Shown: one piece after another, positions 52,701-58,700 of the stretch
Numbering within the stretch: position 1 is the stretch's first letter
How the letters are laid out: each line of letters begins with the position of its first letter
DNA from: Tachypleus tridentatus
Lineage: Eukaryota > Arthropoda > Merostomata > Xiphosura > Limulidae
DNA length: 64,000 nucleotides
Assembly: GCF_004210375.1 (NCBI RefSeq)
Contig: NC_134828.1
Location: 26,280,400 to 26,344,399, forward strand
Direction of reading: 5' to 3'
The notes under the pieces: generated by a model
The model's database searches: none
Told to the model about the DNA's origin: nothing
Seen by the model: only the letters and a program-made list of their open reading frames with translations
Program-made: the position numbers and the translations under genes

Positions 52701-55700
52701 GTTCCTTATAAATATTTATATATTCACATACACATGTAATAGTAGACTGATGCTTGTAAATATTCATATACTCATATATACATGTAATAGTAGACTGATG
52801 CTTATAAATATATATGTACTCACATATACATGTAATAGTAGACTGATGCTTGTAAATATTTATGTACTCACATATACATGTAATAGTAGACTGATGCTTG
52901 TAAATATTTATGTACTCACATATACATGTAATAGTAGACTGATGCTTGTAAATATTTATGTACTCACATATACATGTAATAGTAGACTGATGCTTGTAAA
53001 TATTTATGTACTCACATATACATGTAATAGTAGACTGATGCTTGTAAATATTTATGTACTCACATATACATGTAATAGTAGACTGATGCTTGTAAATATT
53101 TATGTACTCACATATACATGTAATAGTAGACTGATGCTTGTAAATATTTATGTACTCACATATACATGTAATAGTAGACTGATGCTTGTAAATATTTATG
53201 TACTCACATATACATGTAATAGTAGACTGATGCTTGTAAATATTTATGTACTCACATATACATGTAATAGTAGACTGATGCTTGTAAATATTTATGTACT
53301 CACATATACATGTAATAGTAGACTGATGCTTGTAAATATTTATGTACTCACATATACATGTAATAGTAGACTGATGCTTGTAAATATTTATGTACTCATA
53401 TATACATATAATAGTAGACTGATGCTTGTAAATATTTATGTACTCATATATACATATAATAGTAGACTGATGCTTGTAAATATTTATATACTCATATATA
53501 CATATAATAGTAAACTGATACTTATAAATATTTATACAAACATAGGAACATGTAAATCTAAAAACTTACAAGTTAAAGCAGAGAATAATATGTTATATCA
53601 ATCCTTTTACATCTGACATATCCAATACCAACTAGGTATTTTGCCCATAATAAACTGATGCTTGTAAATATTTATAATGTTTGTAGGAACACAAACATGT
53701 CTAAATGAACTGAACCATTTCATGTTTGTAAGAATTTTGCTGTAAAAAGGTTCAGATGCAAAATCTTTATCTCTAACTGTCCATTTTAATGCTTTGTCTA
53801 ATACTGTTAATGGTAACAGAATAAAACTTTGTATTGTAGTGTGTACTTCTTGCTTTGTTTAGTACCATTGATGTTAGCAGAACATGACACTGTGTTCTGA
53901 CAGGAAGGTAAGGGGTTAACAGGAGCTAACATATACATTTGTTTTTATACATCAGAAGCTTTGAAAACCAACAGTGTATAATAGAATGTTGGTCAATAAC
54001 TACTCTGCATTCTTCAGTTTATTATAGCAGTTAGTTAACTGTTAGAACATAGTTTTAAATTTTGACGAAAAGTGTTAAATAACAACTCAAAACAATTATA
54101 TTGTTATTTAGTGGTGCTTTTGGAGTGGTTCATAGATGTTTATATTTTTATTTAACTTTCTCTCTTGCTATATAGTGGTGCTTTTGGAGTGGTTCATAGA
54201 TGTTTATATTTTTATTTAACTTTCTCTCTTGTTATATAGTGGAGCTTTTGGAGTGGTTCATAGATGTTTATATTTTTATTTAACTTTCTCTCTTGTTATA
54301 TAGTGGTGCTTTTGGAGTGGTTCATAGATGTTTATATTTTTATTTAACTTTCTCTCTTGTTATTTAGTGGTGCTTTTGGAGTGGTTCATAGATGTTTATA
54401 TTTTTATTTAACTTTCTCTCGTTATTTAGTGGAGCTTTTGGAGTGGTTCATAGATGTTTATATTTTTATTTAACTTTCTCTTGTTATTTAGTGGTGCTTT
54501 TGTAGTGGTTCATAGATGTTTATATTTTCATTTAACTTTCTCTTGTTATTTAGTGGTGCTTTTGTAGTGGTTCATAGATGTTTATATTTTCATTTAACTT
54601 TCTCTCTTGTTATTTAGTGGTGCTTTTGTAGTGGTTCATAGATGTTTATATTTTCATTTAACTTTCTCTCTTGTTATTTAGTGGAGCTTTTGGAGTGGTT
54701 CATAGATGTTTATATTTTCATTTAACTTTCTCTCTTGTTATTTAGTGGTGCTTTTGGAGTGGTTCATAGATGTTTATATTTTCATTTAACTTTCTCTCTT
54801 GTTATTTAGTGGAGCTTTTGGAGTGGTTCATAGATGTTTATATTTTCATTTAACTTTCTCTCTTGTTATTTAGTGGAGCTTTTGGAGTGGTTCATAGATG
54901 TTTATATTTTTATTTAACTTTCTCTCTTGTTATTTAGTGGTGCTTTTGGAGTGGTTCATAGATGTTTATATTTTTATTTAACTTTCTCTCTTGTTATTTA
55001 GTGGTGCTTTTGGAGTGGTTCATAGATGTTTATATTTTCATTTAACTTTCTCTCTTGTTATTTAGTGGTGCTTTTGGAGTGGTTCATAGATGTTTATATT
55101 TTTATTTAACTTTCTCTTGTTATTTAGTGGTGCTTTTGGAGTGGTTCATAGATGTTTATATTTTTATTTAACTTTCTCTTGTTATTTAGTGGTGCTTTTG
55201 GAGTGTTTCATAGATATTTATATTTTTATTTAACTTTCTCTCTTGTTATATAGTGGAGCTTTTGGAGTGTTTCATAGATGTTTATATTTTCATTTAACTT
55301 TCTCTCTTGTTATTTAGTGGTGCTTTTGTAGTGGTTCATAGATGTTTATATTTTCATTTAACTTTCTCTCTTGTTATTTAGTGGTGCTTTTGGAGTGGTT
55401 CATAGATGTTTATATTTTCATTTAACTTTCTCTCTTGTTATTTAGTGGAGCTTTTGGAGTGTTTCATAGATATTTATATTTTTATTTAACTTTCTCTTGT
55501 TACTTAGTGGTGCTTTTGGAGTGTTTCATAGATGTTTATATTTTTATTTAACTTTCTCTTGTTATTTAGTGGTGCTTTTGGAGTGGTTCATAGATGTTTA
55601 TATTTTCATTTAACTTTCTCTCTTGTTATTTAGTGGAGCTTTTGGAGTGTTTCATAGATATTTATATTTTTATTTAACTTTCTCTTGTTACTTAGTGGTG

Positions 55701-58700
55701 CTTTTGGAGTGGTTCATAGATGTTTATATTTTTATTTAACTTTCTCTTGTTATTTAGTGGTGCTTTTGGAGTGTTTCATAGATATTTATATTTTTATTTA
55801 ACTTTCTCTTGTTACTTAGTGGTGCTTTTGGAGTGGTTCATAGATGTTTATATTTTTATTTAACTTTCTCTTGTTATTTAGTGGTGCTTTTGGAGTGGTT
55901 CATAGATGTTTATATTTTCATTTAACTTTCTCTCTTGTTATTTAGTGGAGCTTTTGGAGTGTTTCATAGATATTTATATTTTTATTTAACTTTCTCTTGT
56001 TACTTAGTGGTGCTTTTGGAGTGGTTCATAGATGTTTATATTTTTATTTAACTTTCTCTTGTTATTTAGTGGTGCTTTTGAGTGGTTCATAGATGTTTAT
56101 ATTTTCATTTAACTTTCTCTTGTTACTTAGTGGTGCTTTTGGAGTGGTTCATAGATGTTTATATTTTCATTTAACTTTCTCTCTTGTTATTTAGTGGAGC
56201 TTTTGGAGTGTTTCATAGATATTTATATTTTTATTTAACTTTCTCTTGTTACTTAGTGGTGCTTTTGGAGTGTTTCATAGATATTTATATTTTTATTTAA
56301 CTTTCTCTTGTTACTTAGTGGTGCTTTTGGAGTGGTTCATAGATGTTTATATTTTTATTTAACTTTCTCTTGTTATTTAGTGGTGCTTTTGGAGTGGTTC
56401 ATAGATGTTTATATTTTCATTTAACTTTCTCTCTTGTTATTTAGTGGAGCTTTTGGAGTGTTTCATAGATATTTATATTTTTATTTAACTTTCTCTTGTT
56501 ACTTAGTGGTGCTTTTGGAGTGGTTCATAGATGTTTATATTTTTATTTAACTTTCTCTTGTTACTTAGTGGTGCTTTTGGAGTGGTTCATAGATGTTTAT
56601 ATTTTCATTTAACTTTCTCTTGTTACTTAGTGGTGCTTTTGGAGTGGTTCATAGATGTTTATATTTTTATTTAACTTTCTCTTGTTACTTAGTGGTGCTT
56701 TTGGAGTGTTTCATAGATATTTATATTTTTATTTAACTTTCTCTTGTTACTTAGTGGTGCTTTTGGAGTGGTTCATAGATGTTTATATTTTCATTTAACT
56801 TTCTCTCTTGTTACTTAGTGGTGCTTTTGGAGTGGTTCATAGATGTTTATATTTTATTTAACTTTCTCTTGTTACTTAGTGGTGCTTTTGGAGTGTTTCA
56901 TAGATATTTATATTTTTATTTAACTTTCTCTTGTTACTTAGTGGTGCTTTTGGAGTGGTTCATAGATATTTATATTTTTATTTAACTTTCTCTTGTTACT
57001 TAGTGGTGCTTTTGGAGTGGTTCATAGATATTTATATTTTTATTTAACTTTCTCTTGTTACTTAGTGGTGCTTTTGGAGTGGTTCATAGATGTTTATATT
57101 TTCATTTAACTTTCTCTTGTTATTTAGTGGTGCTTTTGGAGTGGTTCATAGATGCAGAGAAAAGAAGACAGGAAATGTGTTTGCTTCAAAGTTCATTCCA
57201 ATCACCCAGCCTGCAGAAAAGGCTGTTATAAAAAAAGAGATTGACATCATGAATCAACTTCATCATCCCAAACTAGTTAGACTTCATGATGCTTTTGAAG
57301 ATGATGATGAAATGGTTCTCATCTATGAATTGTAAGCTCATCATTTATCAGTTAACAGTGTTCTTGACTTCTATAGGATATCTGTTGTTAGATAAGATAA
57401 AAAATATCCAGTTACTCAGAATAAAGTGTTGGCCTTGTCCTTCTTTTTTTTTTTCATGTACATTTATCTCTTCAAAGAGAGAATTTTTCATTTTAATGTC
57501 ATTAAGTTTTATGTTACTCTGTTACAGAATTTATTCATGTTTCAATGTCAGATGTAATTTATTCACAAAGGAAACTTGACAGTACTTTGATATCACTCAG
57601 TTCTTTACATCATTTAGCTAATAAACTGGTTGGTCTTTGATATCAACGATGTCTTGATATTGTTTAGTTATAGAATCGAAGTTTCATTTCTTTATGTAAC
57701 TTAGTCAGAGAGATACTATAACGTTTGTTTACCTTCACACAGTATGGCTGGTGGTGAATTGTTTGAAAAGGTAACAGTAGAGGATTACAACATGTCTGAG
57801 GCAGAGGTTATAAACTATATGCGACAAATATGTGATGGTGTGAAACACATGCATGAGAAAAACATTCTTCACTTAGATATCAAGGTAAGAACATTTATGA
57901 AATCTAGTTTCTGTCATACATCAGAAAATACTTGTGTAAGTAGTTAGGTTTTGGTGTGAAGACTGATAGATGTGTTTTATTTCAAGTACTTTGTTCATTT
58001 ATTTAATAAGAATGGGCTTCAGATGATTATTATGGCAGGTTAATACTAAACATTACATTCAAGTTGTCAAAGAGTACACCAGGTGGACTTGCAGGAGAGC
58101 AGAGTGGATCAGCTGCTTCTTCCATTTTTTGTCTGCAGGATATAATACAAACACAACATTTACAATAATTGAGACAAACTTTATGTGGCTTCTCCCTCAT
58201 TTTGGTTGCATGTCCCATCTATGGTTAGCGGATTACTTTGGATCAGTTGGTAAGGGGTTAACATAAGTCAACATATACATTTGTTTTTGTACATCAGTAG
58301 TTTTTAAAACCAACTGTGTATAATAGAATGTTGGTCAATAACTACTCTGTATTCTTCAGTTTATTATGGTAGTTAGTTAACTGTTAGAACATCGTTTTAA
58401 ATTTTGATAAAAAGTGTTTTTAACAACTTAAAAATAACTAGAAAACTCAATTTGACTAACTTCTATATTAAAGTAAAAATAGAATAATACAGCAGTATTA
58501 ACAGTATTATAATATAGCTAATGCTGCTTTGTTTTGCAAAGTATGTTGGTACTGACATTTACCTTTTATGCTGCTTTGGTTACAAAAATATATCAGTACT
58601 GACATTTAACTTATGCTGCTTTAGTTACAAAAATATATCAGTACTGACATTTAACTTTTATGCTACTTTGGTTCACAAAAATATATCAGTACTGACATTT

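Follow-up and report, generated by a model that had tools for sequence, protein, structure and literature searches.

Forty-eight tandem copies of a 3' splice junction ahead of the kinase exon of a Tachypleus tridentatus twitchin gene

Minisatellites that span intron-exon boundaries are known from amphioxus as mirages and are described as leaving splicing undisturbed (PMC3087553, PMC3902484). Regular splicing was suggested there by reverse transcription polymerase chain reaction (RT-PCR), haplotypes of one gene (BflGb6) carried 6 and 3 units (PMC3087553, PMC3902484), and somatic polymorphism was reported for the Adh3 mirage. Here we describe an array of this kind in a stretch of 64,000 nucleotides from the xiphosuran Tachypleus tridentatus (contig NC_134828.1, positions 26,280,400 to 26,344,399; hereafter the window), in which 48 tandem decoy copies of a 3' splice junction stand before an exon of the twitchin kinase domain. 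A first-pass annotation of the same DNA had read it as a muscle-kinase minisatellite that crosses an exon boundary; re-analysis with Tandem Repeats Finder (TRF) and by parsing of the repeat units confirmed that the boundary array is real, and the kinase proved to be that of twitchin.

The gene lies on the + strand from about 34.6 kb of the window onwards and encodes immunoglobulin (Ig) and fn3 modules followed by a kinase domain. Pfam fn3 or I-set domains were found in 10/10 exon open reading frames (picked by eye), the best match to a solved structure was twitchin (1kob, 1.3e-38), and the joined exons matched twitchin-named proteins. The closest named relatives by identity (67–76%) were those of a spider mite, another mite, a spider and a tick; homologues from crab, brine shrimp and insects were mostly 57–70% identical. 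Judged by its Ig/fn3 modules and its twitchin kinase domain, the gene is twitchin. The exon upstream of the array (52565..52658, + strand), placed by sequence, frame and protein homology, ends in phase 2 with ...GAAATTGGAGT (exon end ...ATTGGAGT/GTAAGT at 52658, the slash marking the junction; donor GTAAGT at 52659). The intron that follows (52659..57127, + strand, 4469 nt) consists mainly of two minisatellites, one of which (52689..53535, + strand, 48 bp × 17.6 by TRF) starts 31 nt past the donor and includes no exon edge; the other is the decoy array. The kinase exon (57128..57331, + strand, 204 nt, phase 2-2), assigned from sequence, frame and homology, begins at the glycine loop GAFGVVHR, has its first 27 nt in the repeat and ends in AATT/GTAAGC, with the donor at 57332; the next intron is 411 nt long.

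TRF placed the array at 54101-57154, with a period of 62, 48.6 copies and 95% matches. Parsing gave 49 AG/TGG[TA]GCTTTTG sites, a series that opens at 54112 and closes with the real acceptor at 57128; the region of the real 3' splice site (57093..57127, + strand), taken from the sequence and an acceptor model, reads TTTATATTTTCATTTAACTTTCTCTTGTTATTTAG. The 48 contiguous units before the real acceptor (25 of 62 bp, 21 of 64 bp and two of 61 bp; 24 variants altogether) are headed by a partial intron piece, the decoy array occupying 54101..57127 on the + strand. Each unit unites the first 27 exonic bases, as had been proposed, with intron bases numbering 35 in the 62-bp and 37 in the 64-bp form; these hold ATTTAAC (TTTAAC in 48/48), a pyrimidine tract and TAG. 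The motif TTTAAC resembles a branch site. The first decoy unit (54112..54175, + strand) has an acceptor without the long pyrimidine tract of the other units and the lowest score on the acceptor model. Thirteen of the 64 unit columns vary: 5 among the 27 exonic bases, 2 among the 12 that follow and 6 among the last 25. Variation touches the exonic and the intronic part alike, and selection either for retaining or for losing decoys is not visible from these counts alone. When the 40 edges of the 20 window exons (ends approximate for two) were tested for copies at E 0.01, only the kinase-exon acceptor had them (48), besides one 16-base match; an old 79% duplicate at another donor escaped this test. 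The 48-copy acceptor array is not a chance result.

A second array was found by searching the animal's own genome (2.17 Gb, 205 contigs) with an exact 30-base piece of the unit. The piece occurred 17 times, 10 times in the window array and 7 times about 815 kb away on the opposite strand of the same sequence; the reversed piece, used as control, occurred 0 times. This second, inverted gene copy matches the window from 34191 (26314590 on the contig, to which coordinates prefixed C4 refer) to at least C4:26376801, with a piecewise identity of 93.5–99.8%, mostly 97–99% and lowest at differing arrays. Its array has 46 decoys (47 sites), again gapless, with AG in every unit and TTTAAC in 46/46. Ordered unit-by-unit alignment of the two arrays yielded 42 pairs, 20 of them identical, with 6 units confined to the window and 4 to the second copy, that is 10 gains or losses; of the unit types, 24 in the window and 18 in the second copy, 13 are common to both, and unit words recur within the window array. 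On this comparison the array is subject to copy-number turnover (48 versus 46 units). The two gene copies would be either twice-placed alleles or a recent inverted duplication. Exons of both copies carry 1-nt indels; unit lengths of 62 and 64 occur in both, and those of 61 and 63 may be assembly errors. The window contains a scaffold gap of 500 N (33691-34190), at whose end homology to the second copy starts, and its exon 36194-36368 has a 1-nt deletion relative to that copy which breaks the frame and is likely an assembly error.

Joined to 57128, the phase-2 upstream exon reads on without a break, and the protein join is continuous in relatives, matching the prediction for the last acceptor; we infer that splicing goes to 57128. 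Reading from a decoy ended at a stop in 48/48 cases (46/46 in the second copy), 103 to 3159 nt upstream of the kinase-exon donor. Truncation upon decoy use had thus been correctly anticipated; that the stop would be the next unit's acceptor TAG holds for the 64-bp units, the case for which it was claimed, whereas the 62-bp units stop in a later unit. Acceptor strength was scored with a coarse model made from the 17 other introns of the twitchin gene. The real acceptor scored 2.0 bits and 30/48 decoys equalled or exceeded it, in keeping with the description of the decoys as credible 3' splice sites (21/46 at least equal in the second copy); decoy 8 is the same as the real site over 50 upstream bases. 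Strength was therefore rejected as the discriminator in the window: local sequence does not select the real site, and the choice must come mainly from the exon side. There the sites differ. Only the last copy gives an exon of 204 nt; from the neighbouring decoys the exon would measure 266, 328, 390 and 452 nt, and from any decoy further upstream over 500 nt. No plausible donor was found inside the array, the best GT scoring 2.3 bits versus 4.0–10.7 bits for the 18 donors behind the donor model; the earlier statement that no donor follows the 27 bases stands, and pseudo-exons within the array were rejected for the same reason. Recursive splicing likewise involves acceptor-like sites inside one intron. 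All 49 sites here read AG/TGG, however, with TG and not GT after the AG, and regenerate no donor; a recursive-splicing array of donor-regenerating AG/GT sites, which the first-pass annotation had also discounted, was rejected.

The explanation that we favour, with a probability of roughly 0.77, is a neutral expansion of a minisatellite over the 3' splice junction, tolerated via exon definition and decay of leaked transcripts and needing no function. The structure of the array was read directly, and its history is reconstructed from it: a 62–64 bp minisatellite would have arisen where the intron meets the twitchin kinase exon, and would then have grown on the intron side, multiplying the acceptor, its pyrimidine and branch-site-like signals and the 27 coding bases that open the exon, while the exon-side copy stayed intact. 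With the exon as the unit of splice-site recognition, the last copy would be chosen, and only the last few decoys would effectively compete. The expansion could be tolerated because only the copy joined to the exon body makes the 204-nt exon bounded by a good donor. The introns on either side measure 4469 and 411 nt, long enough for recognition across the exon to be expected; the change to exon definition is placed at introns of 250 nt, which both exceed, and a preference for the exon side under exon definition is reported (PMC9225289). Exon definition had been named before as a possible discriminator, and these observations point the same way. A transcript spliced to a decoy would meet a premature stop 103 nt or more upstream of the next junction, and its removal by nonsense-mediated decay is therefore expected. 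Such decay may hide badly spliced new sequence from selection, as argued for intron gain in Drosophila (PMC2809761).

Boundary copying was then surveyed over a 130-kb region with the second copy, in which twitchin homology fell into 56 blocks and 33 TRF arrays took up 37,457 bases; exon edges were inferred from protein homology and splice motifs. Six arrays overlapped homology blocks. One overlap (73167-73418 in coordinates of the region) was dropped, the alignment running on into a 48-bp intron array. An exon edge lay within the TRF span of 4/33 arrays, whose exonic parts measure 20, 14, 14 and 27 nt; the second case is weak. A 62-bp array of about 7 copies (C4:27226277-27226729, − strand; TRF and inspection) includes a twitchin donor with 20 exonic nt and has 6 decoys (2 GT, 4 GC); its units also read AG/18 nt/GT or GC, like micro-exons. 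A 59-bp array (C4:27212908-27213879, − strand), assigned from TRF span and donor motif, covers a donor with 14 exonic nt and has 13 decoys by motif; its exonic part is weakly alike, and self-comparison gave no match across its edge. Since 12/13 of its decoy donors outscore the real donor, strength cannot decide there. A 46-bp array (C4:27175933-27176177, − strand; TRF and inspection) covers an acceptor with 14 exonic nt and has 5 decoys, 4 of which read AA, not AG. Counted apart from the four, as it ends 9 nt short of the exon by TRF, is a 116-bp array (C4:27129811-27137276, − strand; TRF and inspection) with 63 copies of an acceptor motif (CAG/GTAC) with 4 exonic bases before the real one, versus 6 such matches at the corresponding place of the window-side copy (C4:26352567-26353412). 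In the four edge-covering arrays and the 116-bp array alike, it is the exon-side copy that continues into the exon body. Inspection also showed a two-copy duplicate of an Ig-exon end with its donor (exon 42602-42713; copies at 42653-42744 and 42748-42839, 79% identical). Self-comparison flagged 11/56 blocks: the five arrays named, the 48-bp array, this old donor duplicate, a place before exon 59118 that proved to be without exon bases, a distant 79-nt match resembling a dispersed repeat, and two blocks that match each other over 31 nt. In the window itself 1/9 arrays past 34,600 overlaps one of the 20 exons. Beyond the kinase array, two further arrays of the second copy lie clearly over an exon edge, at a donor in one case and an acceptor in the other, and another two do so weakly, again with one at a donor and one at an acceptor. 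Boundary copying is, on these assignments, a recurrent feature of either exon side in the minisatellite-rich twitchin gene, of which the kinase-exon acceptor array is the cleanest case.

Several observations weigh against a purely neutral, well-tolerated array. The acceptor model discriminates weakly, 22% of the 1357 other AGs in the gene attaining the median decoy score, and the use of the last acceptor, on which the explanation is built, is something that we infer from frame and homology. Strength may help at the 116-bp array, where 0/63 decoys attain the score of the real site; AG has been lost in 4/5 decoys of the 46-bp acceptor array, and the downstream donor of the old 79% duplicate at exon 42602-42713 is dead. 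Such lost or weak decoys could reflect a cost of live decoys, or a contribution of strength to the choice. For human 3' sites between long introns, the upstream-site preference is described as reduced rather than reversed (PMC9225289), and some decoy leakage is therefore expected, perhaps more than trivial. Spurious AG signals close to 3' splice sites have been inferred to be removed by purifying selection (PMC10946897). That selection again points to a decoy cost, and an array of 48 decoys seems to defy it. Finally, the expressed copy may be other than that of the window, which starts at a scaffold gap and is frameshifted by 1 nt in another exon.

The first-pass annotation had also entertained a device for splice delay or expression tuning. 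In such a ladder a share of the transcripts spliced to decoys would decay, array length would set the amount of twitchin kinase, and length variants would differ in dose. The stops from 48/48 decoys, the retention of AG and TTTAAC in all units and the difference in copy number between two near-identical gene copies speak for this proposal. However, the unit varies at exonic and intronic positions alike, without a visible sign of conservation or constraint, arrays recur at other exon edges of the gene, and stops are so frequent that nearly any array would lead to decay, so they are no sign of design. Nothing tested points to splice delay or tuning, and we regard the ladder as improbable. The same low standing is given to its extension to a length-variable dosage element, in which each extra acceptor would divert pre-mRNA to a stop-bearing, decaying product, unit number would set the kinase-active twitchin in muscle, and the other boundary arrays would act likewise.

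Slightly less probable still is a switch for exon skipping, in which competing acceptors or pyrimidine-tract-binding proteins weaken the definition of the 204-nt exon, and in-frame skipping yields a kinase-dead scaffold that lacks the glycine loop along with the adjoining downstream stretch of the N-lobe. The length and phase (2-2) of the exon permit this, and the motifs CTCTCT and TCTCT are far denser in the array (21 and 69 per 3027 nt) than in window 34601-54000 (0.8 and 5.0 per 3027 nt). The density follows, however, from repetition of one pyrimidine tract, and a pattern search found the skipped form in 0/240 proteins of other species among the matches listed.

It is also quite unlikely that the window copy is an unexpressed duplicate or misplaced alternative haplotype, correct splicing of its array then not being required. 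Similarity to the second copy does start exactly at the end of the scaffold gap, the second copy extends into 5' gene parts that the window copy does not have beyond the gap, and exon 36194-36368 is frameshifted; with 46 decoys in the second copy, the splicing problem stands whichever copy is expressed. Inflation of one or a few copies by the assembler, named in the first-pass annotation as what would refute the array, is as improbable: residual 1-nt exon indels in both copies and the start of the window copy at a 500-N gap would allow it, but the array occurs at two places, albeit of one assembly, with 48 and 46 units that differ in part in type and lie between flanks mostly 97–99% identical.

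Elsewhere in the window, a 48-bp array (5434-6933) keeps an open reading frame of about 500 codons on either strand, which is possible where unit length divides by three. A dispersed repeat of ~270 bp occurs in both orientations (3609-3878, 9289-9538, 10751-11030, 12726-12996, 19447-19713 and 21171-21423) and was found twice more in the second gene region, 80–88% identical.

The twitchin arrays show how much splice-signal duplication a gene may absorb. With 49 near-identical acceptors set apart chiefly by how far they lie from one donor, and a second copy of 47, the locus is a natural ladder in which exon definition can be weighed, by junction counting, against first-come or intron-side choice. 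The locus resembles the competing 3' splice sites studied under exon definition (PMC9225289), where acceptors of like strength lie in a long intron with one donor and proximity to the exon matters; site pairs were used there as against 49 sites here, and the human 3' preference is reduced and no absolute rule. In the Rogers model of intron gain, cited in PMC3087553, segments with splice signals are likewise duplicated in tandem; the twitchin case differs in forming no new intron, an existing intron being lengthened and its boundary copied.

The closest likeness is to the amphioxus mirages. Both consist of tandem units with intron end, acceptor and exon start (or the donor side), many of them with splice signals, and both show concerted evolution and differences in copy number, there between haplotypes and here between two gene copies. 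The twitchin unit crosses the exon-intron boundary, keeps its splice signals in gapless units and combines length instability with homogenisation within the cluster; by the features tested, the array is a mirage. The literature search, which covered mainly open-access papers, found no report of boundary-spanning arrays outside amphioxus. Compared with the mirages of amphioxus, the twitchin array differs in its arthropod host, in its 48 and 46 units versus 6 and 3 in BflGb6, in the several exon-edge arrays of a single gene, and in that regular splicing was suggested by RT-PCR in amphioxus and is predicted for twitchin. Overall, the kind of array appears to be one already known from amphioxus, and what would be new here is its scale, its occurrence in an arthropod and its recurrence at several edges of one gene.

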